In this document: one piece after another, positions 2,175 through 17,850 of the stretch
Layout: the number at the start of each line of letters is the position of its first letter
Numbering within the stretch: the first letter of the stretch is position 1
Origin: Boothiomyces macroporosus
Lineage: Eukaryota; Chytridiomycota; Chytridiomycetes; Rhizophydiales; Terramycetaceae
DNA: 18,477 nt
Direction of reading: 5' to 3'
Assembly: GCA_027604185.1 (NCBI GenBank)
Contig: JADGKB010000188.1
Location: 1 to 18,477 of the forward strand
Translations under genes and position numbers: made by a program
The notes under the pieces: generated by a model
Database searches by the model: none
What the model was told of the DNA's origin: nothing
What the model saw: only the letters and a program-made list of their open reading frames with translations

Positions 2175-2553
2175 TCACTCTTGATCGTCAACTGATTTGC
2201 CATCTAGTACTCGCACAGTATTAGCGACAATAGTAACTCCCTTCTTTGCATTGTCTTCTGTTTGCCAGTACTTGAATTCGCCTTCCACCAACACCATGCT
2301 TCCCTTTCCAATGTTCTTTAGAGATCGGAGAGTAGTGATTGAATGCCACATTGTTTCTGTTTCGTATTCCTCTCCTTTCTTTACCGACTTTGTAGTTGCT
2401 AGTGAAAACTTCCATGATCCCTGGTACTTTGAATCTTCCTTTGGATAGTTGAATGGAACGAATTCCGGGTTCTGTCCCATTCTTCCGACTAGCGTAACTC
2501 TGCTGAATACTAGATTAATTGGGATTACTGGATCGCTTAAATACACGCAACAT
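2175..2553 (-). CDS. RIM1: Mitochondrial single-stranded DNA-binding protein (Rim1/SSBP1)
   Basis: Binds single-stranded mtDNA during replication. Two exons are inferred: 2553-2529 and 2509-2175, with a 19-nt intron at 2528-2510 (GTAATCCCAATTAATCTAG, phase 1). The spliced protein is 119 residues. It starts MLRVFKRSIFSRVTLVGR, a short basic mitochondrial presequence running straight into the OB-fold strand typical of mtSSB (VTLVGRMGQNPEF). Other family marks are FSLATTKS, MWHSITTL, VLVEGEFKYW and VANTVRVLDG. Without splicing, the ATG frame hits a stop after 12 codons, and the long frame would need a GTG start. An alternative 37-nt intron (start MLLFSRV) is possible but gives a poorer presequence and does not fit the local intron size. 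The ATG lies only 19 bp from the stop of the upstream gene. Confidence 0.9.
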
Positions 2554-2572
2554 TTTCAGATTAGTAAAAAAA

Positions 2573-3037
2573 TTATATTATTAAAAGTACAAATATTAAA
2601 CTCAATGGAACCGAAACGGTGGATGCTGCATTGGCATCAAATACCGGTGCTCTGGTTGGCTGCACGAGAGTAGCGAACTGATTGGGTGCCCCGTTGTTGT
2701 AAGCGTCAGGAGAAACTCCATTCGGTACTGAGCCAGTTGTCCCACTGCTAGATCCAGTATTCTGTTGATTTTGCGTAATATAATAAGCAGCATTTGGATC
2801 GTTAGGACAAAAATTAGTAAAACATCCAGCAACGGTTCTATAAAATGCTGCTGTACAGTAAGAGGGAGACGTGGCTCCTCTACAGGCAATTTCTGGTGTC
2901 CTGCTGGCTGGCGGTAAAGGTTGTCCAGAAACTGATACTAGTCCATTCGAGATACATGAATTAAAGGCGTAATTTGGGAGGTTTTGGGTGCAGTTCAACG
3001 ATTGACTGGCGACTGTTGAAATTAGCAGGAAAAGCAT
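2573..3037 (-). CDS. Small cysteine-rich secreted, probably GPI-anchored protein
   Basis: 154 residues, ATG at 3037. MLFLLISTVASQS is a signal peptide. The mature N-terminal half has six cysteines (16, 28, 52, 61, 72, 77) and an N-glycosylation sequon NCT at 15-17. A low-complexity Ser/Gly/Thr/Asn/Pro stretch (~90-135) follows, then a hydrophobic C-terminal segment (~140-154, PLSLIFVLLII) with no charged end, consistent with a GPI signal. This layout resembles fungal cell-surface proteins, but the cysteine number and spacing do not match the eight-cysteine CFEM domain, so I do not assign a family. Its stop is 19 bp before the mtSSB start on the same strand, an unusually tight gap for eukaryotic genes. 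Confidence 0.72.
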   Translation of the reverse strand: MLFLLISTVASQSLNCTQNLPNYAFNSCISNGLVSVSGQPLPPASRTPEIACRGATSPSYCTAAFYRTVAGCFTNFCPNDPNAAYYITQNQQNTGSSSGTTGSVPNGVSPDAYNNGAPNQFATLVQPTRAPVFDANAASTVSVPLSLIFVLLII

Positions 3038-3519
3038 TAGATTTTTTTGTTTGGCAGTCCCTTTAAATACTCGCCACAGATTAAAGAGTGCATTTATCCG
3101 CTAGGAAGGAAGAACTATTTTCCGCTGCGAATGTTTATCCGAATCATTTCCGATCGTCAAAAGTCTATTTTGGTGCTTGTCTGTCAAAATACTTGCATTT
3201 TAATGTGCAATGTAGTTTACTTGGTTATAGTCACGTGACATATCGGAGTGAACAATTTCTTTGAAACGTAGATCTCTGTTTCAACAAAAATTACGGCTGA
3301 TTGCTTTTCAAATTAGATTCAAGTCTTTATTTTACTAACCTAGCCTTGATCTAATTCTAATTGCTTGGTCTGTGTGGATAGCGTCTGTTTCCATAATATC
3401 AAATAGCGTCAGTTTCCATAATATCAAATAACGTCTGTTTCCATAATTACGAATTTTAAGCAATCATAATCTCACATAGAACTGGAATTCGCGTCAATTG
3501 TATTTCATTAGCGAAATGA
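3038..3519. other. Intergenic region, about 480 bp
   Basis: Upstream of the minus-strand cluster and of the unknown plus-strand gene. A 63-codon frame at 3047-3238 has no protein-like features. The region contains the 25-bp tandem repeats (3379-3447) and is otherwise AT-rich. It presumably holds promoters in both directions. Confidence 0.5.
3379..3447. repeat. 25-bp tandem repeat, 2.8 copies
   Basis: Units at 3379-3403, 3404-3428 and 3429-3447 share TAGCGTCTGTTTCCATAATA. Unit 2 differs by one base (CAG for CTG); unit 3 has TAACG for TAGCG and is truncated. Each carries GCGTC or ACGTC and TTTCCATAAT. It could be a repeated regulatory element or neutral minisatellite DNA. Confidence 0.85.
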
Positions 3520-3547
3520 TTAGTAAATAAAGCACCCTCCAATCAAT

Positions 3548-3922
3548 ATGTTAATGATTACTGGCAAATCAATTCAAAAAGCAATGTACTACAAGGCTAT
3601 AATCCATTAGCAGATCAAGACAAGAAAGAGCATTTACCACCAATAGAAATACATAATTTTCCGATGAACGCGAAAAGTTTATGAATTCATTCAAAAAGAG
3701 AGAGAAAATACTCTTGGCACCTATAAAAACACCTGCATTCCCAGCCATACCACTCAAACAAAAGGGTAGATTGAACCCAATAATCGATGCTCCAAAACCA
3801 CCAGAATTGGATAAACGGTTTAGGTTAGACCCGTTAGTTTTGCGAAGAGAAAAGATTGCTAGAGCAGCAGAAAAGAGAAGAGAAGAGTATATGAATAAAG
3901 TAAAAGTAGATTATTATTTTGA
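3548..3922 (+). CDS. Small basic protein of unknown family, frame apparently broken
   Basis: The best supported part is frame 3 from about 3661 (ERE KFMNSFKKREKIL...) to about 3886: a Lys/Arg/Pro-rich stretch containing GRLNPIIDAPKPPELDKRF and a basic helix RREKIARAAEKRREEYM. Just upstream, another frame is open from 3520 to 3681 and also reads like protein (NVLQGYNPLADQDKKEHLPP). The two overlap at 3658-3684 and would join smoothly if one T were added to the TTTT run at 3657-3660. The nearest upstream ATG (3548) is in the third frame and would join if one A were added at 3576-3580. No 19-21 nt GT-AG intron fits either junction. The 3' end is also unclear: in-frame reading runs on antisense to SPB4, while a possible 20-nt intron at 3887-3906 would give a TGA at 3920-3922. 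It is convergent with SPB4. It could be a small mitoribosomal-like basic protein, but I cannot place it. Confidence 0.4.
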
Positions 3923-5632
3923 TTTTGCTATTCGTCGTTTCTCTTTTTTCAGTTTACGCTCTGTTCGTTTTTCTTTTTGTTCTTTCTTCTCAGACCATGG
4001 AATAGATTTAGGTTTGTATACTTTGGGTTGTGTATTTGCTTTTTTTATCTGCCGTTGCTGTTCTCTTTGCTTGTCCTTGTATTCGATTTCATCAACCTGG
4101 ATTAGAAATATTTACGTTGATTTCGTCTTGTTCAAAGTCTATTTTCAATTGTTTCAGTTCAGGCATCTTTGGGAGTCGAGGAATACCCATAGATTTAGCT
4201 ACAGCTCCAAGGTCGAGATCTTTGATTTGGAAAATGTAACCTGCTTGATGCTCTTTATATGCTCTTACAAAACTGACAAATGCTTTGATGCTCTGATGTT
4301 AATTTGCTTTCACCTTGTCATAAATATCTCTGTCTCCAATAACCATATCTTTGATTTGCATCAATATATTGCTTTTAGAAACACCGCCTTCGTCGGGATA
4401 CTCTTTTGTCGATAGTTTCCGAATCTCTAAAAACTCTACATATGTAGATTCATTTTCATTTAGCATAATCACTGCTTGGCCGCCTCTTCCTATTCTAGCA
4501 GTTCTACCACACCTATGTGCAAACGCTTTTGGATCTTGCGGAGCATCATACTGAATTACAAAGTCTATATCCGGCAAATCTAATCCTCTAGCAGCAATAT
4601 CTGTGCATATTAATACGCTACCAGCTCCTCCTTGACTGTACTTTTGAAATGTCAATTCTCTCTTTTTTGTAACCATTTTCCCGTGCAAAGAATGAAAACT
4701 CAGCTCTTTCAAACCTTCAATATTCTTCAGTATCTTGTAAAAGAAATCCACACATGCTCCAGTAGCAAAATAAATTATAAACTTTTTTTCCTGATTGTTC
4801 TTTAGTATTGATACCAATCGTGCTATTTTTTCATCTGGCTTTGCAATCAAGTAAAACATTTCCAGAGTTGAAGGTACCTTTTGTTCGCTAATCATTTCAC
4901 CATCATTTGATTGAACTTTGACTTGTACTTTAACTGGATTTCTCAAACCAGCTTTGACTAGCTTGGTCAATGCCTCAGTCATTGTTGCTGAAAATAGCCC
5001 TGTTCTGCGCTGCTTTGGAATTTTCCGTATAATTGACGTTAGTTGCACTTCAAAGCCCATATCCAGGAGTCTGTCAGCTTCATCTAGCATTAATTTTATA
5101 TACCCATAACCAAGACTTCTACCTCCTTGGTATTGAATATAGTGCTTCGCTTAAACAAATCATCCAGCCTCCCTGGAGTTCCGATGACTATTTGGCCCCC
5201 TTTTTCATTGAATAGCTTCACGTCTTCTCTAGTGTCATTTCCACCAATGAAAAGCAAATGCCTAATCCCTTCTTTTACAATACAGTTTTCATCTTCATTC
5301 AAAGCATCAATAAATGGCGTCATTACTTTATGAATTTGCTGAGCAAGCTCTCTAGTTGGTGAAATTATTACGGCTCCGATTTCATTCTTTTTCAGCGGGC
5401 GATCTTGTTGATATCTCCGCAATAGCATTTCCAAGATAGGAATCACAAAAGAAAGGGTTTTCCCAGATCCTGTAACAGCTTCCACAACAACGTCCTTGTA
5501 AGCCAAAAATAACGGGATTACGGACGCCTGAACGGGAGTCATTTGCGTATATCCATGGTATAGTAGAGTCTGTTTAATAGTAGGATTCAATCCAGTCCAC
5601 TCTCCAGCATTGGCAATATTCTGAAGTTGCAT
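3914..5632 (-). CDS. SPB4: DEAD-box RNA helicase Spb4/DDX55
   Basis: Nucleolar ATP-dependent helicase needed for late 60S subunit assembly (family knowledge). Four exons: 5632-5104, 5083-4314, 4292-4116 and 4096-3914. Introns are 20 nt (5103-5084), 21 nt (4313-4293) and 19 nt (4115-4097). The protein is 552 residues, close to the ~600 of yeast Spb4. Motifs in order: Q motif (MTPVQ), motif I AVTGSGKT at 52-59, PTRELAQQ, TPGRL, DEAD at 177-180 (its first Asp codon is split by intron 1), SAT, IYFATGACVDFF, CTDIAARGLDLPD, HRCGRTARIGRGG. The Spb4-specific tail follows: AFVSFVRAYKEH, IPRLPKMPELK, then YKDKQREQQRQ and a very Lys-rich end. ATG 5632 is the first usable start; the longer upstream frame has no ATG. 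Divergent from VPS2 over 50 bp. Confidence 0.95.
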
Positions 5633-5682
5633 TTGAAAAACAAAAAAAATAAAATTGAAAACGCCATTTTCACTAATCCAAA
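5633..5682. promoter_or_regulatory. 50-bp shared divergent promoter, SPB4 / VPS2
   Basis: Only 50 bp separates the SPB4 ATG (minus) from the VPS2 ATG (plus). It contains a T/A-rich tract (AAAAAACAAAAAAAATAAAA across 5635-5654 or nearby) and no clear TATA box. Both start codons must be served by this segment or by elements inside the neighbouring coding sequence. Confidence 0.7.
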
Positions 5683-6386
5683 ATGGACTTTTTGTTTGGC
5701 TCCCGAAAGACACCAGCAGAGATGCTTAAACAGAACCAAAGGGCCCTTAATAAAGCCCAAAGAGAGCTGGATAGAGAGCGAACGAAATTGGAACAGCAGG
5801 AAAAGAAGCTAATTGCAGACATCAAAAAGACAGCCAAGCAAGGGCAGATGGTAGATAATTAGTAACAAGGGCGCATGTAAAGTAATGGCAAAGGATCTAG
5901 TACGAACGCGAAGATATATTCAAAAGTTTTATCAGACTAGAACCCAAGTACAAGCAATCGCGCTTCAGATACAAGTATTTTGAATTAATGCGAGACGTTT
6001 AGATCTAATCAGCAAATGGCGGATGCAATGAAAGGAGTCACAAAAGCATTGGCTTCCATGAACAAGGGTACATATCTTTAATATAGGCGTGAATCTACCA
6101 CAAATATCAAAGATCATGATGGATTTCCAAAAAGAATCTGAAATGATGGATATGAAACAAGAGTTGATGAATGATGCTATCGATGATACAATGGAAGATG
6201 ATAATGATGAAGAAGAGAGCGACCAAATCTTGAACCAAGTACTGGATGAGATTGGAATTGATTTGAATCAATCCGTAATTAAATTTAACGTAGATGGCTG
6301 AGGCACCTGCTAGCAAATTGGTAAAGGAAAAAATACCAGAGCAAGACGATCTGCAAGCCAGACTAGATTCTTTGAGGAAAGAATAA
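5683..6386 (+). CDS. VPS2: ESCRT-III subunit Vps2/Did4 (CHMP2)
   Basis: Membrane-remodelling subunit acting on endosomes in multivesicular body formation and recruiting the ATPase Vps4. Five exons: 5683-5850, 5870-5974, 5995-6067, 6087-6274 and 6294-6386, giving 208 residues. The introns are 19, 20, 19 and 19 nt: 5851-5869, 5975-5994, 6068-6086 and 6275-6293. The start MDFLFGSRKTPAEMLKQNQR is the basic membrane-binding helix 1. AKDLVRTRRYIQKF, NLPQISKIMMDFQ and the acidic DEEESDQILNQVLDEIGID are family hallmarks. The C-terminal DDLQARLDSLRKE (196-208) is a MIM1 motif for the Vps4 MIT domain. Every splice restores alignment with yeast Did4 as I know it. The last codons and the stop lie in the first unit of a 41-bp tandem repeat. 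Confidence 0.96.
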
Positions 6387-6489
6387 ACCAAACTGAATCT
6401 ATACGGTATTCTTTGAAGGGAGAATAAAACAAACTGAATTTATACGGTATTCTTTGAGGGGGGAATAAACCAAATTGATCGCATATAAA
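6367..6489 (+). repeat. 41-bp tandem repeat over the VPS2 stop codon and 3' UTR
   Basis: Units at 6367-6407, 6408-6448 and 6449-~6489 begin ATTCTTTGA(G/A)G. Each contains GAATAAA followed by CAAA(C/T)TGA; the third unit diverges in its last third. The first unit includes the final VPS2 codons (SLRKE) and the TAA. Each copy carries an AATAAA, so a possible poly(A) signal is present three times. The extra copies are not translated. Confidence 0.9.
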
Positions 6490-6924
6490 CTGACCTTGAA
6501 TATTGATAACAAGACAAATATAACAGCATTAAAGTAACACCGCTGCGCCATAAACAATCAAACAACCCCAGGTTTATTTGCAAAACCAAGTTAGTGTAAA
6601 CTGGTATTCTTTGCCAGATCTGGAAATATATCTTTATTGGGTTCCCTATTTCCGAACTGTTGTTAATATGGGAAAAACAACCGCTTCAGTTAATCCGCAA
6701 TATTACCGCATATTAAATTATTAATTCAACAACCGTTATATATTAAATTACATGGTGAGATTTGGCTAAAGCACGGACCTTTTCTACCTCCGACCTCAAA
6801 ATCATTCCGCAATTATCGTATTATCACAATTCTTTATTTCATTTTGTCCTACTTTATTTTTTAATTTTTACATTTTGTTTTACTATTCGTTCTCTTGAGC
6901 CAAATTTTTTCTGTTATTTTCCTA
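6387..6924. other. Intergenic region between VPS2 and the TF array, 538 bp
   Basis: Begins with the 41-bp repeats (to ~6489). An AT-rich stretch with no coding frame follows. It includes two 11-bp direct repeats ATATTAAATTA (6710-6720, 6740-6750), two CAACCG sites nearby, and a CGG-N13-CCG pair (6774-6792). The last ~100 bp before TF-A is pyrimidine-rich. It is presumably the TF-A promoter. Confidence 0.5.
6774..6792. promoter_or_regulatory. Candidate Zn2Cys6 binding site, CGG-N13-CCG
   Basis: CGG at 6774-6776 and CCG at 6790-6792 form an inverted pair 133 bp before the TF-A start. Dimeric Gal4-type proteins bind paired CGG triplets with a protein-specific spacer. The assignment is by pattern only; such pairs also occur by chance. 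Confidence 0.25.
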
Positions 6925-8551
6925 ATGAAAAGCTGCGAGTCTTGTATCAAAAAAGTAGAATTTGCTAATAGTAGAAGCTACGGTGCTCGCGAACTCAACC
7001 CTGTACCAACTGCGAAATCCGGCAAGTCAAGTGTATATATCTTACAAAGCAACAAGTAATTGACAAATATATCAGCATAGAGGACCGAATAAAAAAACTG
7101 GAAATGCAATTGATAATACCATTGAAATACAGCTTGCAGACACCCGAGCCGATACCTAAAAATCACCCGCAGGTATCAATTACACCCGAAATGGAGCGGG
7201 TTTTGTTTACAAACAATGATCACTTGATAGATTTGAGGTTTCAGAAATTTCCCGGAATTCTCAATTATATAGACGAGGAATATTATAGAAACTCTGCAAA
7301 GATATTTTGGCCGCTGCGTTTCGCTTTGTGTGCATCTGGAAGTCTGTTTGTATCTCAGGATATGGTGCCTCAAGGATTGGAGAATAGGTTAGAGCTAGCA
7401 CTCGCTTATATCAAAAAAGCCCAGACATTCAACTTTTTCTCAAACCCTGACCATCTGCATGTCCTTTCTTTGGCAGAGATTGGATCTGCATGGCTAAGTA
7501 ATTAAATCTAATAATAGGATTGGACAGAAATGAAGGATATCGGTATATCAAACTAGCAGTTCAAATAGCAAAGAGTATAGGATTGAATACAGAAGCTGGG
7601 GTTGCCTCTTTCACATGTTTTGATTACGAACAGGAAAACATTCGAAGAATTTGGTGGTTCATGTACACTATCTATAGCACAATGACCAAATGGTTTGGGG
7701 TTGAATTATTCGCAGATAATGATGGTGATTTATTCCTACCCGCAGAAAAATATTTCAAACCGGAATCCGAGCTGGAGATTTACGGGAAGGAGATTATGCG
7801 AAACCCCGAATGGTTTACTCCAAGCATAAAAAGTCAATCTGTAATGGGGTATCGGATCTTGCTGCATAGAATTGAGCTAAGGATACAAAAGTACATTTTG
7901 TTGGAACTTTCGGATAAACCTATCAATACCGGATACATATTTGGTAGTTTATGCGGCTCGCTTAGGGAGTGGTTCGAAACAGTGCGTAAAGAAATGTGTG
8001 TTCACTATAACTCTATTCTAGATAAAACAAGCCAAAACCTACCGCTTTCTTGGTTGGCATTATTTACTATACTAATTTACAACAACAATGTCCTTGAATT
8101 AATCTTTCCAAAATTCATGAAAAACATTCTTCTAGGTAAAAAGGTTCAAAATTCTCCTTATTTTAATCAAGCAACAGAAGCTGCACTATTTAACTCTTCA
8201 ATATTAAACGCCATTAAATTATACAACCCGAAAATGGAGCATCTGAATCCCCAGCTGTTCAAATTCACATTCAAATCAGGTTTCTTTTTGCAATGTACAT
8301 TGAAAATTCACGGTATTGCTAGTCCGCAATTAGAAACTGCATATGCTTTGCATGTAGAATCGCTTTTAGACCAAGGGGTAGTGTTTCAACGAACGAATAA
8401 TTTTTACAACATCCTGCTCCATTTAAAAGACATGGATTTGTATAATTCAATACTTACATTTGGTGAGTTCTCTGCCAGAAAATTTGATATTGCATTTGAA
8501 AAGCCTCAAGTCGCTCTTGCAGATCAATTCCAAAATGTCAAAATAAACTAA
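6925..8551 (+). CDS. Zn(II)2Cys6 transcription factor TF-A
   Basis: Nuclear sequence-specific regulator by family. Three exons: 6925-6954, 6975-7497 and 7518-8551, giving 528 residues. Intron 1 (6955-6974, 20 nt, phase 0) lies inside the zinc cluster; intron 2 (7498-7517, 20 nt, phase 1) lies in the middle region. The spliced N-terminus MKSCESCIKKKLRCSRTQPC and its continuation give Cys 4, 7, 14, 20, 23 and 30: C-x2-C-x6-C-x5-C-x2-C-x6-C. A linker and a short coiled coil (YISIEDRIKKLEMQL) follow. The fungal_trans-type region includes AEIGSAWLRLDRNEG across the second splice, LAVQIAKSIGLN and FDYEQENIRRIWWFMY. Without intron 2 removed, the protein ends at a stop just after GSAWLSN. Closest in the array to TF-B and TF-E. 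Targets unknown. Confidence 0.93.
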
Positions 8552-8588
8552 TGTATACCCATCGCTTTAAAGATCTCCATTTGGTCAG

Positions 8589-8610
8589 ATTCTAAAAAGA
8601 GTTTTAGAAT
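8589..8610. repeat. Perfect inverted repeat, 9-bp arms, AGAG loop
   Basis: ATTCTAAAA (8589-8597), AGAG, TTTTAGAAT (8602-8610). It starts 37 bp past the TF-A stop, so it could fold in the 3' UTR; as DNA it could be a dyad site. No known motif is recognised. Confidence 0.75.
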
Positions 8611-8630
8611 AATTATTACTCATCAGTGTT

Positions 8631-8638
8631 CCCGCGGG
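8631..8638. promoter_or_regulatory. CCCGCGGG palindrome, candidate CGG-type site
   Basis: An 8-bp GC palindrome in otherwise AT-rich DNA, 230 bp before TF-B. It contains CCG directly abutting CGG. It could be bound by a Zn2Cys6 dimer; evidence is pattern only. Confidence 0.25.
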
Positions 8639-8867
8639 TCATTAAACCCACTTTTTCGCGAGTGATTCATGCCGACTTTTGTTTGGAACCAAGGTCCAAA
8701 CAGAAAACTTGGAAAATATTCAAAGCTTGCCAGAGCACATCCTCAAGTTAATACGAGCCCAATGATCCCACTTCCCAATAATATTTTATTTTTTAGCAAG
8801 TCAAATTGGTCACTAATTTGGTTGGACATTTGTAAAATTTTTCCACTAGTTTCAAGAAATTTCAAAA

Positions 8868-10491
8868 ATGAAATCCTGCGAAGCCTGTATACGTAAAGTA
8901 AAGCGAGCTAATTCTAGAAACAGCGATGCTCCCGTACCACACCGTGCCATAACTGTGTTCAAAAGAACCTCAAATGTGTGTACCTTTCCAAACAGGAAGT
9001 TATTGATAAATATGCTGAAATGGAGCAGAGAATAAAGCGTTTAGAGATGCAGCTAATTATTCCGTTGAAATACAGCTGGGAGGAGAGAAAGGACCTGGCG
9101 GAGAATCGGGAGATGGTGTCAATAACGGATGATATGGAAAAAATACTGTTCACAAATAACGATTATTTAATAGATTTAAGGTTTCAAAAGTTCCCCGGGA
9201 AGCTGAATTATATCGAAGAAGAATATTATCGAAATTCAGCTAAAATATTTTGGCCGCTGCGATACGCCCTGTATGCTTCTGGGAGCTTATTTGTTGCACC
9301 AAACATGGTGCCGAAAGGGTTAGAAAATCGGTTAGAAATGTCCCTTGCGTATCTAAAGAAAGCCTTGACCTTTAATTTTTTTGATAAACCGGACCACTTT
9401 CATGTTCTCGCCCTAACTGAAATCGGATCTGCTTATTTTAGTACTTGAAATTAACTGTAGGGTTAGATAGGAGCGAAGGAATTCGGTATATCAAGCTGGC
9501 GGTGCAAATCGCCAAGAGTATTGGAATGAATACAGAAAAGGGAATATCCAAACTGTCCTTTTTTGATTATGAACAAGAAAACATTCGCCGCGTTTGGTGG
9601 TTGTTATTCACTATATTTACCATAACAAACAGGGTGTTTGGTCCAGATTTGATTACAGACTTTGATAATCAGGTATATCTACCTTCTGATGTATACTTTA
9701 AAGCAGAATCGATATCTGAATTATATTGCATGGATATAATGAGCAGTGCGGAATGGTATACTGCATGTGTAAAGGGATTATCCGTGATGGCTTACAAGAT
9801 ACTCTTACACAGAATAGAAGCAAGAATACAACAGTATATATTACTGGAACTATCTGAACCCTCCATTAACACCGATTGTATCAGAGGGACCTTGTTTGGA
9901 TCACTAAGAGAATGGCTAGATTGCTATGTTCCCAAAGTTAATTATCACTACGGGCTTATCGTAAGCAACCAATGTACAGATCCCCCACTGTCTTGGTTAG
10001 CCATCTTTACTTCACTGATATACAATAATAACATACTCGAACTAGTATTCCCGAAATTCATGAAAAATGTACTACAAAGTAAAAAAGTGCAGAATACAAT
10101 GTATTATGATGAAGCACTAAAGGTCACACTAAACAACTCGACGTTATTGCACACTATTAAACTTTGCAATCCAAAGATGGAGCACCTCAACTTGCACCTG
10201 TTCAAAATGACATTTAAAGCAGCATTCTTTTTGCAGTGTGTTACAAAGATACCCAATGCCGCAACTGCCCAAGTAGTAGCCGCGTACAATCTTCATCTCG
10301 AATCGCTATTAGCACAAGGAGTGGTGTTTCAAAGAACTAATAGCTTCTACAACATTTTGATCTATCTCAAAGACTTTGATTTGTACCACTCTGTGTTGAA
10401 ATTTGGCGAATTTTCTGCAAGGAAATTCGATGTTGCTTTTGAGCGCCCGCAAGCTGTACTTGTGGACAGTCTCACTAATTTAAATATGTAG
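8868..10491 (+). CDS. Zn(II)2Cys6 transcription factor TF-B
   Basis: Three exons: 8868-8897, 8918-9440 and 9461-10491, giving 527 residues. Intron 1 (8898-8917) and intron 2 (9441-9460) are both 20 nt and sit at the same codons and phases as in TF-A. The zinc cluster starts MKSCEACIRKKQRCSRTTPC, with Cys 4, 7, 14, 20, 23 and 30. The coiled coil is YAEMEQRIKRLEMQL. The middle region includes FWPLRYALYASGSLF, EIGSAYFRLDRSEG (across the second splice), LAVQIAKSIGMN and FDYEQENIRRVWWLLF. The C-terminal half shares RIEARIQQYILLELSE, VVFQRTNSFYNILIYL and GEFSARKFDVAFERPQ with TF-A, showing that A and B are close duplicates. Function beyond DNA binding is not known. Confidence 0.93.
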
Positions 10492-10492
10492 T

Positions 10493-10512
10493 AATATATT
10501 GCACAATATATT
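10493..10512. repeat. Inverted repeat AATATATTG-CA-CAATATATT
   Basis: Nine-bp arms (10493-10501, 10504-10512) around CA, one base after the TF-B stop codon (10489-10491). It could form a stem in the 3' UTR or be a palindromic DNA element; simple AT sequence makes chance formation possible. Confidence 0.6.
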
Positions 10513-10545
10513 TTTAGAACCCTGTTTTCCTCGTTTAAAGTTATT

Positions 10546-10566
10546 CGGACTTTGAGTTTTTTTCCG
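10546..10566. promoter_or_regulatory. Candidate Zn2Cys6 binding site, CGG-N15-CCG
   Basis: CGG at 10546-10548 and CCG at 10564-10566, 43 bp before the TF-C ATG. The inverted orientation is that of Gal4-like sites, with a spacer two bases longer than at TF-A. Pattern evidence only. Confidence 0.25.
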
Positions 10567-10608
10567 AGGTTAAATTCTTTGCTTTCCTTTGTACTTGCAA
10601 CGGATTTA

Positions 10609-12251
10609 ATGTATCAGAGAAGTTGCGATCTATGCATAAAACGGGTGAGTCGGCGATTAACCTAGAAACGTAAATGCGATCGTAATCGGCCCTGTTCCTT
10701 GTGTGTTTCTCGCAAAATTGAATGTGTTTACAGCCAAAAAGAGAATCTGGAATTGCAATACGCTCTGATTGAGCAGCGGATTAAAAAATTAGAACAGTTG
10801 TTGATATTACCGTTCAAGCATTCTTGGCAAATCACTCAGGAGAATACAAAACGAGCAGGTGCGATTTATGAAATTTCAGCACCGCTTGAACAAGAGCTTT
10901 TTGAAAGGAATCATGATTATTTGCTCGACTTGAGGTTTGAAAAATGCCCTATTACGTACTTTTTTATCACAAAAGAATATCTCATTACATCGTGTGGTCA
11001 ATCCGACGCTTTGCGATACACGCAATACGCTATCGGGAGCTTGTTCTTGGTAGACAAGGAGCGGATACCGGAACAGTTGAATAACAGAGTAGAGCTGGCG
11101 AGTTTATTTCTGGAAAAGACAAAAACATTCAATTTCTTTGAAAGCAACAATCCAATCGATATACTGGCGATATCTGAGCTAGTGATGGTCCTAATCTGTA
11201 ATATTTCATTAATCAAGTGCTCAATAGAGTTCCGGAAGCTAAATTGTATTTCAAATTTGGCTGCATGCTGGCTAAAGAAATTGGAGTTGTTACTGAGGAT
11301 GGAATAGAAAAGCTTTCGCCTTTTGACTACGAGAGAGAAAATATCAGAGGAATATGGTGGAATTTCCACACACTAGGAATACTCTTGGATGAAGACTTTG
11401 ATTTTAAAGTGGAGGTTTACCTTCCAGCAAATTACTTGTTTGAACAAAGATCCGAATCTGATATTTATGGAATGGAAATAATGAACAGTGATGAATGGTA
11501 TACCTTCTCATTGCCAAACCTATCTTTTGCAGCTTACAGGGTACTATTAAAACGGATACAGGGAAAAGTAATGCGATATACATATTTAAAAATGCTAGGA
11601 GAACTAAAGGAAGAAAGTTACATTGTTGGAGCAATTTCCGGATCACTCAACGACTGGATATCATGTACTCAAGAGTACTTTGTACAGCAATACAGACTAA
11701 TCTCATCTAATAGTGTCCAATACCCCTTAAATACATGGACTGCATTGTATACCAAGCTATCGTTCAATTATTTGCGTATTGAACTGATTATGCCAAAACT
11801 TATAAAAAAGATTCTTGAGGGAACCAGTGTGTATGGAATATTGCATTTAGGAGCTGCAATACTCTCAGCCCTGGACAATACTTATTTATTACAACTTATC
11901 AAAACTCACAATCCAGACTTTAAATATCTTATTGGACATATCGGAGTGATGATGTTTCCGTCAGCATTCTTGCTGCAGTGCGTCTCTAAATTCCCAAGGT
12001 CTAAAAAGTTCAAGGTGGACAGAGGGCTGATACAAAAAGCTTTTTCTACGCATTTAGATGCATTAAGCCTGTATGCAACCGCATTTCAGCGTGAAATGAC
12101 TTACTACCAACTGCTAATACAAATGAACGACTTGGATCTGTATAATGCCGTGCTTACATTTGGCGAAATAAAAGCTTCAGGAAATGAGCTGGTAATTCAA
12201 CGTGCCAAACCTGATCCAGTAGAGCTATTATCACAATTAAGCCTAAATTAA
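10609..12251 (+). CDS. Zn(II)2Cys6 transcription factor TF-C
   Basis: Three exons: 10609-10644, 10666-11197 and 11218-12251, giving 533 residues. Intron 1 (10645-10665) is 21 nt with an in-frame TAG; intron 2 (11198-11217) is 20 nt. The zinc cluster starts MYQRSCDLCIKRKRKCDRNR, with Cys 6, 9, 16, 22, 25 and 32 and the conserved Lys/Arg-rich loop and Asp after Cys3. The coiled coil is YALIEQRIKKLEQLL, then PFKHSW. The middle region includes ELVMVLILLNRVPEAKLYF (across the second splice) and FDYERENIRGIWWNFH. The C-terminus has AFQREMTYYQLLIQM, DLDLYNAVLTFGEIKASGNE and ends LSQLSLN. Clearly paired with TF-D by IRGIWWN, IRKIL/IKKILEG and YIGVMMFP-type motifs. Targets unknown. Confidence 0.93.
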
Positions 12252-12394
12252 TATATATAATTGATGATTGTATTGGTGATTTGCTGTTAAAAATTACCGT
12301 TTACAATGGCAAACGACATTTTTTGTGGTCAGTGCATTTTTTGGTGCTTTGGTCCTGATTGGTAAAACAGAAATATTTTCCATAGGTTTCGAAA

Positions 12395-14030
12395 ATGCTT
12401 CCGCAAAGAAGCTGTGACGTGTGTGTAAAAAGAGTAAACAAACGGTAACATAGAAACGCAAATGCGATCTCAAGCAGCCATGCTCATTTTGTTCTTCTCG
12501 CAAAGTCAAATGTATCTACTCCAAACAGGAACAGCTGGAATCACAATACAAGCTGCTTGAAGAACGGATTAGAAAGTTGGAGTTGTTACTGATATTACCC
12601 TTTCGTAACTCTTGGGAATGTAGCGGGCAGAATCCAAATAGATCAATTCCCGTATTCCAAATCCCCGAATCTGTGGAAAAGGAATTGTTTGAAAAAGACC
12701 ATGATAATTTGTTGCGTTTGCGGATATCTAGATACCCCATTACCTATTTTTATACTACATTAGAATTTCTTGTTCTATCTAGTAGACAATCACCGCCATT
12801 GAAATACGCCTTGTATGCAACTGGAAGTTTGTTTCTAACTGACAAAACATTGATTCCTAGTTTTTTGAAGGACAGAGTTGAATTAGCAAATGTGTTTCTG
12901 GAAAAGGCCAAGACCTTCAACTTTTACGAAAAGAATGATCCATTGAATGTCCTGGCTTTGTCTGAAATTGTGCTGACATTGATCCGTAAGCAATATTGAT
13001 GATAGAGTTGAATAGAGTTGAAGAAGCACGACTGTATATCAAGAAAGCCTTCATGTATGCTAATTTCATTGGGATGACAAATGAATTCACGCTGATGGGG
13101 CTATCTTCTTTCGACTATGAAAAAGAGAACATTCGAGGGATATGGTGGAACATATACTCTCTGGCTATATTTTTGGGTGTTGGCTGCGATTTCAAATTCG
13201 ACCTGTATCTACCATCGAATTTTCTGTTTGAATCCGGGACAACTCAGGATGAACTTGGACCCCAACTTTTAAATAGCGACGAGTGGTATACTTGTTCAAT
13301 CCCCAATCAATCATTCTCTGCTCAGAGGTTGATACTAAAGAAAATCCAAGGTAAAATAATGAAATACAATAATATGATTATGTTAGGAACAGCCAAGGAT
13401 GATCAGTACATTGTAGGTTGCATAGCAGCGTCACTGGATGAATGGATCATCCACACTAAAGGATTATTTCAAAAACATATTAATCTTTTGATTCAGAGGA
13501 ATGTGGAAAAGCCATATTTGACGTGGTATGTCATATATACCAATTTGGCTTTTAATTTTCTACGAATCGAATTGGTTATGGCAAAATTCATTCGAAAAAT
13601 CTTGGAGGGTAAGAATGCTTTTGAGATTCTTCATGTTGGGGAAGCTTTAAGTGCAGCGTTAAATAACGGGAATATTCTGCAACTCATTCAGTACTTTAAT
13701 CCTACGTTTGATCATTTGATAGGCTACATTGGAGTAATGATGTTTCCAACAGCATTCTTTTTGCAGTGCATGGTAAAGATACCCGCTCTAAAATCCGGCA
13801 TTGAAGTTGAAAAAGTTAAATGTGCTTATAAAACTCATCTCGATTTATTTTTCCTCTATGAATCTGCTTTCCAGCGAGAAGCCACTTACGTGCGGTTACT
13901 AAAACGAATGGAGGATTTGGATTTATACAATTCGATTTTGACTTTTGGGGAGCTGAAGTCGTTTGGAAACGAACTGGCGGTCCAACGGCCCAAAGCCCAA
14001 CATGTCGATGTTTTTGCGACTTCACTTTGA
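12395..14030 (+). CDS. Zn(II)2Cys6 transcription factor TF-D
   Basis: Three exons: 12395-12433, 12454-12985 and 13006-14030, giving 531 residues. Both introns are 20 nt (12434-12453, 12986-13005). The N-terminus MLPQRSCDVCVKRKRKCDLK gives Cys 7, 10, 17, 23, 26 and 33. The coiled coil is YKLLEERIRKLELLL, then PFRNSW. The middle region includes EIVLTLIQLNRVEEARLY (across the second splice) and FDYEKENIRGIWWNIY. The C-terminal half has YIGVMMFPTAFFLQC, AFQREATYVRLLKRM and DLDLYNSILTFGELKSFGNE. Sister of TF-C by sequence and by position. A frame that ignores the 12986-13005 intron stops three codons after the 5' splice site. Role beyond DNA binding is not known. Confidence 0.93.
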
Positions 14031-14494
14031 ATGGTTTTCATGAATAATACAAAGGATTGGTTACCTATTGGACTGTTTGATCAATATATATAGCGTACCA
14101 ACAATAAAACTGATTATTGCACTGAATATCAACCAGTCGATTTTTTTTTGTGTTGGCTAAATTCCTACATGAGTGGACCAAATGCAACATATCATTTCGG
14201 TACGCTCATTAATTACAAACAAGCACATAATACGACCATTACAGACCGATAAGATTAATTGACATGAATTATTCACCGTTCAATCATAACGGGCTCATTA
14301 TAACTATGTAACGCGAGAAAGTCCACCCCAAAAAATACATATTTCGTAGATCCAGCTATCCGAACGGGATATTCGATCTGTTTAACTGCGAGAATCTAAA
14401 GGTGCTACACACGGGGACTTTAGGACTTTTAACCCGCCAATTGCTTTCCAGAAAATTTTTCCCCATTCCTCAAAAATTAGCAAAACCAAAGATT
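14031..14494. other. Intergenic region TF-D/TF-E, 464 bp
   Basis: The longest gap in the array. No supported coding frame. It has an 8-bp inverted pair AGCGTACC (14092-14099) and GGTACGCT (14199-14206), and CCG-AA-CGG at 14360-14367. The rest is AT-rich. It separates the C/D pair from E/F and may be a remnant of duplicated upstream DNA. Confidence 0.45.
14360..14367. promoter_or_regulatory. CCG-AA-CGG, candidate everted CGG site
   Basis: Two CGG-type half-sites back to back with a 2-bp spacer, 127 bp before TF-E. Everted CGG pairs are known for some Zn2Cys6 proteins. Pattern evidence only. Confidence 0.25.
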
Positions 14495-16116
14495 ATGAAA
14501 TCATGTGAAGCATGCATAAAAAGAGTAGTTTTACGTTGATCATAGAAGCAGCGATGTACTAGGACGATACCGTGCAGCGGCTGTGAAACCAGAAATATAC
14601 CCTGTATTTACCTCACCAAAGATGATGTTCTGTTGAAAATTACGAAATTTGAAGATAGAATTAAAAATCTGGAGCTGCAGCTCATCCTGCCACGCAAATA
14701 CGAATGGAAATCCGGTCCAAACAATCGAAAAGAAACTGTAACGAGGATAGCAATTACAGTTGAATTGGAAAGGGAACTATTCAGAGATCTGGACTATCTA
14801 ATGGATCTAAAGTTTCAAAAATTTCCAAGTACCATGTATTATATTACTGAGGATTATTTAAGGACGTCTGCGAAACAGTTTTGGCCACTGAGATATGCAC
14901 TATACGCCTCTGGGTGTCTCTACATAACACAGGACAAGGTTCCGGCTGGATTAAGGAATCGAATAGAGATGGCACATGCGTATCTTGAAAAGGCGCTAAC
15001 ATTTAATTTCATGGTAAATCCTGAACCCATTCATGTATTGGCACTATCGGAAATAGGATCTGCATATCTAAGTAAGCAATCCTAACGTTAGGATTGGATA
15101 GAAATGAAGGTTTTACCTATTTAAAATTGGCAGTCCAAATTGCCAAGAGTATTGGAATGAACCACGAAGGGAATTTATCCAAATTTACTTTTTTCGATTA
15201 TGAACAAGAGAATATTAGAAGGATTTGGTGGCTTCTGTATTCCGTCTATTGCCAAGCAACCAAGCGCTTTGGTGATCATATTATTGTTGACGAGGACAAC
15301 ATGTTGTACCTTCCATCAGATAATTTTTTTAAAACCGAATCGTCGCTAGAGTCTTTTGGAAAAGAAATCATGACCAGCACAGAATGGTTTACACCTTGTG
15401 TATGTGATCAATCCATTATGGGATATCGGATTATTCTGCATAGAATTGAATTGCGTATCCACAAATATATATTAATAGAGTTGTCAAATACAAGTAGGGA
15501 CTCGGAATACTACTTTGGTTGCTTGAGTGGCTCCCTAAGGGATTGGCTGGAATGCGTACGAAAACCAATGTGTGATTACTATTATATGGTTCTGGATGGT
15601 AATACTCCAGACAAAGCCGCATCTTGGTTGGCACTCAATACCCTACAGTTATACAATGATAATGTCATGGAATTGATTTTTCCAAAATTTATGAAGAGTA
15701 TTCTTATAGGAAAAAAGGTTCAAAACTCAATCTTTTTTAATCAAGCGTTGGAGGCAGTAAAGCAGAACTCGGCATTGTTGGATTTGATTCGCACGCGCAA
15801 TCCGGAAATGCAACATTTGAACCCTTACATTGTCAAAATTACATTCAAAGTAGCATTTTTTATTCAATGTCTAACTAAATTACCTGAAGTATCTACATTG
15901 CAGCTGCATGCATCTTACAGATTACACATTGATTCGCTATTATCACAGAGTCGTGTTTTTCAACGGACGGCAAACTTTTATCACATCCTAATTGATCTGG
16001 AGCAGTTAGATTTGTATAATGCAATATTGAAATTTGGCGAATATACCGCCAGAAAATTTGACGTGAATATTGAAAAACCAAACGCGATTAACTCCATCAA
16101 ATACCTAAAAATTTAG
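14495..16116 (+). CDS. Zn(II)2Cys6 transcription factor TF-E
   Basis: Three exons: 14495-14524, 14546-15071 and 15092-16116, giving 526 residues. Intron 1 (14525-14545) is 21 nt and contains in-frame stops; intron 2 (15072-15091) is 20 nt. The zinc cluster starts MKSCEACIKRKQRCTRTIPC, with Cys 4, 7, 14, 20, 23 and 30. The loop before Cys6 reads ETRNIP, less basic than in the others. The coiled coil is ITKFEDRIKNLELQL. The middle region includes FWPLRYALYASGCLY, EIGSAYLRLDRNEG (across the second splice), LAVQIAKSIGMN and FDYEQENIRRIWWLLY. The C-terminus has VFQRTANFYHILIDLE and GEYTARKFDVNIEKPN. It groups with TF-A and TF-B although C and D lie between them. Its targets cannot be read from the sequence. 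Confidence 0.93.
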
Positions 16117-16219
16117 TTGAAATAAATTCTTGTATTCATTAATATTCTGGTTGGTATTGGTCTATCTGTGGATGTGCTACTGAAAATCTTTGCTCATTTT
16201 TTTCCAGATTTTTTTGTAG

Positions 16220-17850
16220 ATGAAAGTGGTAAACAACTGCGATTTCTGCATAAAAAGAGTATTATTATTTAATATCAGAAACGGAAATGCGATAGACTGC
16301 AGCCATGCGGGCTTTGCCTTTCAAAAAATGTGGAATGTGTGTACGGAATGAAGGAACTGGATCGAATCGATTACTCTGTGATCGAAGAGAGAATCAAGAA
16401 GCTGGAAATGCTGCTTATCGTACCATTCAAGCATTCTTGGGAAACAAAAGATTTTAGTGATGCGGTCAACCAGATACCTATCATACAGATATCCAAAGAT
16501 ATTGAAAGCCAATTGTTTGAAGAAAATCGCGATTATCTGATAGATTTGAGGTTTGCCAAAATACCAAGTAGCGCTACGCTGGTCACAGAGGATTATTTTC
16601 GGGGATGTGCAAATCAATTTTGGCCGCTGAAATGTATTCTATACTCTGGCGGAGCTCTTTACGCGACTTCAGAACAAATACCAGCTGGTCTCATTAATAG
16701 ACTGGAAATGTCTACTTTATACCTAGAGAAAGCATTAACGTTTAACTTCTGCACTCAAAATGACCCTGTTACCGTTCTTACACTCAGTCAAATTGGGACC
16801 CAGCTGGTACGTTTAGATAAGCCCGATAGTTACCTATATTTCAAGATGGCAATTAAATATGCCAAGATGTTGGGAATTAATTCTGAAGACGGCATTGCAA
16901 AAATATCTCCGTTTGATTACGAAAGGGAAAACATACGGAGAATATGGTGGTTTCTCTACTCTATTTTTGCCCTTAGTACTCAAAAATTTGAAGATGAAGC
17001 AATCAAAGATAGCGACTGTCAGCTCTTTTTACCTTCCGATAATATCAACTTTCGTTTCAATTCAATTGAAGACTATCAAGGAAAAGAGCTGATGGCTAGT
17101 ACCGAATGGTACACGCACTGTATACCCAACCAGTCTGTATTGGCTTACAAGATAATTTTACATAGAATCCAAATCAAACTGCACAAGTATGTCCTCTTGT
17201 TTCTCAGAAAGGAATCAGATGAAATTGAATATATAGCTGGTGCATTAGACGGCTCTCTTAGGGGCTGGTATGACTGTACAATCGGAATATTCAACAGCTG
17301 TGTCTATCAAATCAAAACTCGACAAATGCAACAGGAAGAGCATTGCTGGCTTGCACTTACTACATATCTGATGTATAATTGTGTCCGAATAGAACTAATC
17401 AACCCAAGATTCATGCATTGTATAATGAAGGACAAGCCTGTAGACAAAATTCTGCACATTCGCGAAGCAATTACTGCCGCACTCAACAACACTCAACTGC
17501 TGGAGCTAATTGAAAGTTACAATCCAAATTTTCAATATATTAGCCCGCTTATTATTGCCCTTATTTATCGATCGGCGTTCTTTGTGCAGTGCATAATGCG
17601 GATTCCAGAATTGGAGAAAGACTACTATGTCCGAGCATACGAAAAGCATCTTCAACTCTTTCAGTTATACGAAAAGTCATTTCAAAGAAAAGCGGTTTTC
17701 TACAAGCTTCTAAAGCATACTGAAGATTTAGATTTGTACAGCGCCATACTTTTTTTTGGTGAGCTGAAAGCAAACAACCGACTTTTGTCGCTGGAAAAAC
17801 CTAAATCTGACCCGGCAAAAATGTTTGCAAAGCTATCGCTCTCCAGCTAG
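16220..17850 (+). CDS. Zn(II)2Cys6 transcription factor TF-F, second intron lost
   Basis: Two exons: 16220-16258 and 16279-17850, giving 536 residues. Intron 1 (16259-16278) is 20 nt at the conserved place in the zinc cluster. MKVVNNCDFCIKRKRKCDRL and its continuation give Cys 7, 10, 17, 23, 26 and 33. The coiled coil is YSVIEERIKKLEMLL, then PFKHSW. At the site of intron 2 in the other five genes the reading is continuous (QIGTQLVRLDKPDSYLYF), with the split Arg codon intact, so the intron is cleanly absent. Sequence features are mixed: the C/D-like KRKRKCD, KHSW, FDYERENIR and C-terminal GELKA; the A/B/E-like DLRFAKIPS, NQFWPLK and RLDK. It lies 103 bp from TF-E and ends the array. Confidence 0.94.

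Follow-up and report, generated by a model that had tools for sequence, protein, structure and literature searches.

Putative spliceosomal introns of 19-22 nucleotides in the chytrid fungus Boothiomyces macroporosus

Fungal introns are usually far longer than 19-22 nucleotides (nt). Introns near this size are described from a few eukaryotic lineages, and the statements made here about them follow portions of the cited accounts. The nucleomorph of Bigelowiella natans contains introns of 18-21 nt, described there as lacking a branch-point signature, together with shrunken U1 and U5 (PMC6461891, PMC2483917), and the shrunken U1 and U5 have been proposed to have co-evolved with these introns (PMC6461891). 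The introns of Stentor coeruleus measure 15-16 nt, with the branch A at position 10-11 and canonical U1, U2 and U6 motifs, and show that introns this short also occur outside reduced genomes; the N-terminus of Isy1 is reported as not conserved in this ciliate, and changes in it and in the Cwc25 plug are proposed to avoid a steric clash (PMC9505925). The mikrocytids have introns of 16-17 nt, 224 of them in M. mackini, and 17-19 spliceosomal proteins identified (PMC10245619). The introns of Paramecium are about 25 bp long. Its 5' site is largely reduced to GT(A), that of the dicyemids, which are animals, is weaker still, and both are described as lacking a branch-point signature; in the same account, short-intron lineages have weak 5' sites and no branch signal, while intron-poor lineages have kept strong signals (PMC2483917). 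The 13 introns considered in the microsporidian Encephalitozoon cuniculi have a mean length of 35.8 nt and conserved 5' sites and branch point (PMC2483917). A fungal survey refers to the introns of Cryptococcus, with a mean of 63 bp, as relatively short (PMC8476143). In a word-matched search of the open-access literature, 20-nt introns turned up for no chytrid and for no other fungus outside the microsporidia. Here we analyse putative introns of this size in an 18,477-base contig of Boothiomyces macroporosus (Chytridiomycota, Rhizophydiales, Terramycetaceae), which in its full length is called the window.

The window contains 19 segments, of 19 nt (five), 20 nt (eleven) and 21 nt (three), as proposed in a previous, sequence-only reading and confirmed by splicing and recounting. 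They belong to a class of 19-22 nt segments that are almost certainly spliceosomal introns, and the best overall explanation, which we hold to be very probable, is that the spliceosomal GU-AG introns of B. macroporosus are held to this length across the genome, as far as it was sampled. All 19 segments begin with GTR, end with AG and contain a (C/T/G)TRAY branch motif complementary to the GUAGUA of U2. The branch A is placed at intron position 14 in 13 segments, at position 15 in five and at position 16 in one, and is followed by six (11 segments), five (seven) or four (one) nucleotides, in agreement with the 4-6 nt of the previous description.

Cutting these segments out of the window in silico, with the start of gene E set at 14495, restored the reading frames of the genes in Table 1. 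The six spliced Zn2Cys6 regulators, A-F, are 526-536 residues long, each in one frame with a single terminal stop, and all six contain the cysteine cluster CX2CX6CX5CX2CX6C. None of the unspliced versions contains the cluster, and their first stop is located at codon 15-56. The Pfam cut-off for Zn_clus was reached by all five spliced regulators that were submitted, and the sixth shows the cysteine pattern. Regulator F has no intron at the position of the second intron common to A-E and thus serves as a natural intron-free control for that position. Without splicing, the frames of Spb4, Vps2 and mtSSB stop at codons 179, 60 and 15, respectively. Frames, cysteine clusters and alignments to relatives thus agree that excision restores the Vps2, Spb4 and Zn2Cys6 proteins, as the sequence-only reading had held; the weakest single case is mtSSB, where the intron joins merely an eight-codon first exon.

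Table 1. Genes and putative introns in the window of B. macroporosus
Feature	Position	Strand	Basis or remark
mtSSB gene	about 2175-2553	-	one 19-nt intron
mtSSB intron, 19 nt	2510..2528	-	in silico splicing; first exon eight codons
Spb4 gene (DEAD-box rRNA helicase)	3914..5632	-	lower end read by eye
Spb4 intron 3, 19 nt	4097..4115	-	no indel vs Terramyces protein P0001
Spb4 intron 2, 21 nt	4293..4313	-	contains in-frame stop; alignment to relatives
Spb4 intron 1, 20 nt	5084..5103	-	interrupts DEAD box; unspliced frame stops at codon 179
Vps2/Did4 gene (ESCRT-III), 4 introns	5683..6386	+	splicing and alignment to relatives
Vps2 intron 1, 19 nt	5851..5869	+	splicing and alignment
Vps2 intron 2, 20 nt	5975..5994	+	splicing and alignment
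Vps2 intron 3, 19 nt	6068..6086	+	splicing and alignment
Vps2 intron 4, 19 nt	6275..6293	+	splicing and alignment
Zn2Cys6 regulator A	6925..8551	+	splicing, Zn_clus/cysteine pattern
Regulator A intron 1, 20 nt, within zinc cluster	6955..6974	+	read through in public protein
Regulator A intron 2, 20 nt	7498..7517	+	excised in public protein
Zn2Cys6 regulator B	8868..10491	+	splicing, Zn_clus/cysteine pattern
Regulator B intron 1, 20 nt	8898..8917	+	excised in public protein
Regulator B intron 2, 20 nt	9441..9460	+	excised in public protein
Zn2Cys6 regulator C	10609..12251	+	splicing, Zn_clus/cysteine pattern
Regulator C intron 1, 21 nt, in-frame stop within	10645..10665	+	splicing
Regulator C intron 2, 20 nt	11198..11217	+	splicing
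Zn2Cys6 regulator D	12395..14030	+	splicing, Zn_clus/cysteine pattern
Regulator D intron 1, 20 nt	12434..12453	+	splicing
Regulator D intron 2, 20 nt	12986..13005	+	splicing
Zn2Cys6 regulator E	14495..16116	+	splicing, cysteine pattern
Regulator E intron 1, 21 nt, in-frame stop within	14525..14545	+	splicing
Regulator E intron 2, 20 nt	15072..15091	+	splicing
Zn2Cys6 regulator F, no second intron	16220..17850	+	splicing, Zn_clus/cysteine pattern
Regulator F intron 1, 20 nt	16259..16278	+	splicing

To learn whether the size class extends beyond the window, 200 kb from two other contigs of the assembly (15.2 Mb, 216 contigs) were scanned without imposing any motif. The scan relied on coding potential and reading frame only, and counted, by their end dinucleotides, the segments of 12-130 nt whose excision joins two coding stretches; near-duplicate matches were left unmerged, and GT..AG was compared with twelve control dinucleotide pairs. 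At 19, 20, 21 and 22 nt, 18, 27, 22 and 16 GT..AG segments were counted, against control means of 3.8, 3.2, 2.8 and 3.9, and the excess is confined to these lengths. Among the nine dinucleotide pairs listed, GT..AG alone peaks there. Summed over 23-59 nt (223 against 225.5) and 60-130 nt (727 against 801.6) the scan gave no GT..AG excess, although individual lengths depart from the controls, by as much as 10 against 5.4 for 38 nt. A GTR start is present in 68 of the 83 GT..AG segments of 19-22 nt, and 42 of these 68 (62%) contain yTRAy near their end, a motif found in 2 of 7 GTR..AG segments of 15-18 nt, 11 of 47 of 23-35 nt, 18 of 95 of 36-60 nt and 48 of 388 of 61-130 nt.

A gene finder that imposed GTR, AG and the branch motif, and penalised introns of 15-120 nt equally, was run on the same 200 kb and the window (218 kb). 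It predicted 166 introns, 120 of which are 19-22 nt long, while the other 46 are scattered in length as in the decoy runs. The four decoys gave 65, 83, 109 and 74 introns, with 2, 27, 1 and 10 of 19-22 nt; the one with 27 had kept GTR..AG and altered the branch motif. Of the 20 multi-intron models outside the window, ten contain 28 tiny introns between them, 15 of which each fall within one Pfam match. Scaled to 15.2 Mb, the 110 introns predicted in the 200 kb would correspond to about 8,000 such introns, or about twice that number if the sensitivity resembles that in the window.

The 120 predicted introns share a common layout that consists of a 5' site GTA(A), 7-9 T-rich bases, a (C/T)TRA(C/T) branch site and 5-6 bases ending in AG. 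At the 5' site, A is found at +3 in 97% (with GTR imposed) and at +4 in 60%, and G at +5 in just 16%, while the upstream exon has A at -2 in 54% and G at -1 in 38%. In the interior, T makes up 45% of the bases. The branch A is located at position 14, 15 and 16 in 60, 40 and 12 introns, respectively. In 107 introns 5 or 6 nt remain after it, and five loop-tail combinations cover 101 of the introns. The sequence-only reading had spoken of almost no distance between the 5' site and the branch point. The distance is indeed very short, but since 112 of the 120 introns place their branch A at position 14-16, it is better described as short and fixed. Two traits of the ultra-short-intron class are thus present, a 5' site that is degenerate beyond GT(A) and lengths within a range of a few nucleotides, the latter in both the 200-kb sample and the window, with rare exceptions. 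The hallmarks of minor, U12-type introns are a 5' site RTATCCTTT and a branch site TCCTTAAC.

Several observations weigh against this reading or narrow its reach. The motif frequencies in the 120 introns are biased, since GTR, AG and the branch motif were imposed at selection. The gene finder also has a bias against stop-free introns whose length is a multiple of three. In the window it predicted just 10 of the 19 introns, along with three others, so that its catalogue is incomplete and the 110 introns found in 200 kb are probably an undercount. Rare longer introns exist, and a range of 19-21 nt therefore holds for the window and not for the whole genome, although the tight size class noted in the sequence-only reading does recur in the other contigs. 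The introns of the SF1 gene are 24, 22 and 21 nt long, and in the Isy1 gene a reading by eye points to a probable intron of 46 nt (L042:1761-1806) that contains GTAAGT and CTAAT. Three of the six tiny introns in genes A-C are read through (one) or lost inside a false intron (two) in the public proteins. In the U2AF65 candidate, the first junction lies in a stretch without strong match, and the reading after the first intron is uncertain. A search for U5 gave no match at E<=1, and a search for RED with RED_N gave no candidate, but the control genomes gave none in either search, so that absence is not implied.

A separate class of longer introns with a strong 5' site, GTRNG, was considered and rejected for lack of a clear excess. 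The search found 13 segments of 23-300 nt, compared to 25-45 with four decoy 5' sites and 8 and 8 with two decoy 3' ends; two candidates, of 24 and 59 nt, are below 60 nt. Introns longer than 130 nt were examined solely up to 300 nt, with the branch motif imposed. The divergence of introns and exons between paralogs, with mean identities of 0.35 and 0.51, was too noisy for use.

The junctions can also be judged by comparison to relatives. The spliced Spb4 (538 residues, with the last residues omitted) is 93% identical to a protein of Terramyces sp. JEL0728, without indels at the three junctions. This match, together with that of regulator A to B. macroporosus at 100% over 78% of its length, led us to drop an origin in a Saccharomycotina yeast, which had been considered at first. 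The spliced Vps2 is gap-free at all four junctions against seven of the nine relatives aligned, which were chosen among 120 listed. The likeliest of the rival explanations, although still very improbable, takes each 20-nt segment to be just part of a true intron of about 40-50 nt or longer. It could draw on the Terramyces Vps2 model (P0122), in which eight residues are absent immediately downstream of intron 1 and another nine next to intron 2, as if introns of roughly 43-47 nt had been removed, as well as on the likely 46-nt intron in Isy1 and on an intron of about 263 nt (7027-7289) in the public B. macroporosus protein HK103_002466. However, the positions missing in Terramyces are filled in all eight other aligned relatives, the 263-nt intron removes a zinc cluster that the 20-nt intron restores, and GT..AG shows no summed excess from 23 to 130 nt. 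The losses in Terramyces look more like the work of a pipeline that lengthened tiny introns up to its accepted minimum.

Public models of the window contig excise some of the tiny introns and mistake others. HK103_002466 and HK103_002467 match the window letter for letter except at codons split by introns, which bears out the earlier assignment of the DNA to a fungal genome. HK103_002467 excises 8898-8917 and 9441-9460 and then jumps from 10485 to 11229, which joins gene B with the latter half of gene C, so that both introns of C are lost within the false intron. HK103_002466 excises 7498-7517, reads through 6955-6974 and, by removing about 7027-7289, destroys the zinc cluster. Three of the six tiny introns in genes A-C are hence excised in public models. 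In Globomyces pollinis-pini, the Vps2 model ceases to align at intron 4, and the few residues that follow start with valine (codon GTN), as expected if the intron were read through, while the model of Globomyces sp. JEL0801 is normal at this site; the Spb4 model of G. pollinis-pini lacks four residues at intron 1. The models P0122 of Terramyces and P0002 and P0130 of G. pollinis-pini thus gain or lose residues beside tiny-intron positions, which suggests annotation damage in related chytrids, and these relatives may have tiny introns as well. Public models seem faulty at places where a tiny intron was overlooked or lengthened, both for the window contig and for two related genera, so that the protein sets of chytrids may contain errors of a systematic kind.

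Parts of the splicing machinery were searched for in the assembly. One U1 gene was found, 163 nt long and with a canonical 5' end ATACTTACCTG (68.8 bits, just below the cut-off of 69.5; E 3.3e-16), along with two U2 genes with an intact GTAGTA and a U6 gene with an intact ACAGAGA. The weak 5' site had raised the possibility that U1 is missing, which the gene found here led us to reject. SF1 has kept the helix-hairpin, KH and a zinc-knuckle region; its spliced product can be aligned to human SF1 over residues 92-422, gap-free at the three junctions. Its third intron (21 nt) seemingly contains no in-frame stop, yet its removal is needed for the zinc knuckle. A U2AF65 candidate scored 230.7 bits in a six-frame search, below the family cut-off of 310.3, and its spliced product matches human U2AF65 over RRM1-RRM2 and the UHM, without a gap at two RRM1 junctions and with equal lengths across the third junction, in the UHM. 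It also matches, more weakly, the segment of U2AF59 whose structure was solved with the small subunit. Yju2 and Isy1 are encoded, and so is Cwc25, which aligns to human CWC25 from residue 1 and has an intact N-terminal plug MGGGDLNLKKSWHP; a loss of the plug as in Stentor was accordingly rejected. The Pfam match of Isy1 begins at model position 4, and the protein (L042) seems to lack the N-terminal start usual in other species and may carry an N-terminal extension, but its N-terminal and first-exon model is uncertain. Since U1, U2, U6, SF1, U2AF65 and Cwc25 look canonical, nothing found so far points to an altered spliceosome.

The same inventory bears on a second rival, the removal of the segments by ciliate-type elimination of internal eliminated sequences (IES) from DNA or by tRNA-type endonuclease splicing. 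Excision defined by an enzyme could give a very uniform length, but the GU-AG boundaries, the branch motif complementary to the GTAGTA of U2 found here, and the presence of genes for U1, U2, U6, SF1, U2AF65, Yju2, Cwc25 and Isy1 make such a route highly unlikely. Identical stretches of 3.2 and 3.1 kb are each present twice in the assembly (L007/L008, near 276 kb and 319 kb of C2, and L040/L041, on C49 and C100), and may represent recent duplications, haplotype copies or assembly redundancy. If redundancy exists, one could suspect insertions in decayed or misassembled genes, but errors would not share length and motif, and the recurrence of segments of the same lengths and GT..AG ends in SPB4, VPS2, SF1, U2AF65, CWC25 and many predicted genes makes this hardly credible.

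Excision by the spliceosome would have to proceed in a very narrow space. The intron would be recognised by U1, SF1/U2AF and U2 as elsewhere, with a lariat loop of just 14-16 nt. The human B complex is reported to need about 52 nt between the two sites: U6 forms a 17-nt helix with the 5' site and U2 a 14-nt helix with the branch site, some 21 nt apart, and Smu1 and RED aid introns with a short spacing between 5' site and branch (PMC6692369). The 13-15 nt between the 5' site and the branch in B. macroporosus are fewer than the two helices alone would occupy, so that some change in geometry or order is called for if the introns are spliced. In that case the helices would have to be shorter, to form in succession, or to be put together across exons; for shortened or sequential helices the chances appear about evenly balanced. 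The introns have probably shrunk to the shortest length tolerated by this spliceosome, and their length may itself contribute to the signal for recognition and so offset the weak 5' site. U2AF65 seems to be kept despite the 5-6 nt past the branch A, and the T-rich stretch upstream of the branch could be its binding site. Taken together, it is possible, if somewhat doubtful, that a chytrid lineage comprising Terramycetaceae and probably Globomyces has reached, in most of its introns, the steric floor of an otherwise canonical opisthokont spliceosome, with a loop of 14-16 nt and a tail of 5-6 nt. The two extended B-complex helices could then not both form, activation would follow another geometry or order, length would replace 5'-site sequence as a signal, and changes to Cwc25 or U1 would not be involved.

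The remaining features of the window are of a different kind. Regulators A-F are six tandem paralogs on one strand (6925-17850). A search with regulator A gave eight proteins at E<=0.001 among 6008 candidates, all from Boothiomyces or Terramyces by name, including a B. macroporosus protein that matches at 100% over 78% of its length, and the cluster is apparently a lineage-specific expansion. A tandem repeat of a 41-mer (2.7 copies, 6367-6478) reaches from the 3' end of the Vps2 coding sequence into the region downstream, and a 25-mer repeat (2.8 copies, 3378-3447) is located outside the modelled genes. Positions 640-1098 encode a short, secreted-looking protein without a Pfam match, with a 39-nt coding repeat and a hydrophobic C-terminus, which is possibly anchored by glycosylphosphatidylinositol. 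On the minus strand, positions 1130-2096 encode two adjacent proteins that have a DnaJ domain and, close to the C-terminus, a hydrophobic stretch; they appear to be paralogs in tandem.

The comparison with the systems described at the outset follows the cited portions of the accounts. The likeness to the introns of chlorarachniophyte nucleomorphs, drawn in the sequence-only reading, is apt with regard to size (18-21 nt there; PMC6461891). B. macroporosus shares with the B. natans nucleomorph the range of lengths, the many introns and the weak 5' site, but differs in its clear branch motif, its U1 of 163 nt and its assembly of 15.2 Mb, as opposed to a relict nucleus of 373 kb. With Stentor it shares a nearly fixed length, a conserved GTA at the 5' site, a branch A at a fixed place and canonical U1, U2 and U6 motifs. 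Unlike Stentor, which is described as having no strong branch consensus and no Cwc25 GGG plug, it has a clear branch motif and the plug MGGGDLNLKKSWHP. Because the plug is intact and U1 is full-size in B. macroporosus, we argue that neither the loss of the former nor a shrunken U1 would be required in every case, although its introns are 3-7 nt longer than those of Stentor. The mikrocytids resemble it in their narrow size range and conserved intron sequence, but are intracellular parasites, with 224 introns in M. mackini compared to 110 predicted in 200 kb of B. macroporosus. With E. cuniculi it has in common short introns, a fungal lineage and a conserved branch point, while its introns are more numerous and shorter than in this parasite and have a weak 5' site. 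Paramecium and the dicyemids are likewise ultra-short in their introns, and in contrast to both, a branch-point signature is present in B. macroporosus.

The chytrid thus appears to have very short introns with a weak 5' site and yet to retain the branch site. It adds to the organisms with ultra-short introns a fungus, presumably free-living, in which SF1, U2AF65 and Cwc25 can be recognised, U1 is of full size and the branch motif persists, and with such ordinary parts it suggests that the spliceosome changes proposed for Stentor and the nucleomorph are not needed in every case. A cultivable fungus of this kind would allow the smallest spliceable intron to be tested directly.

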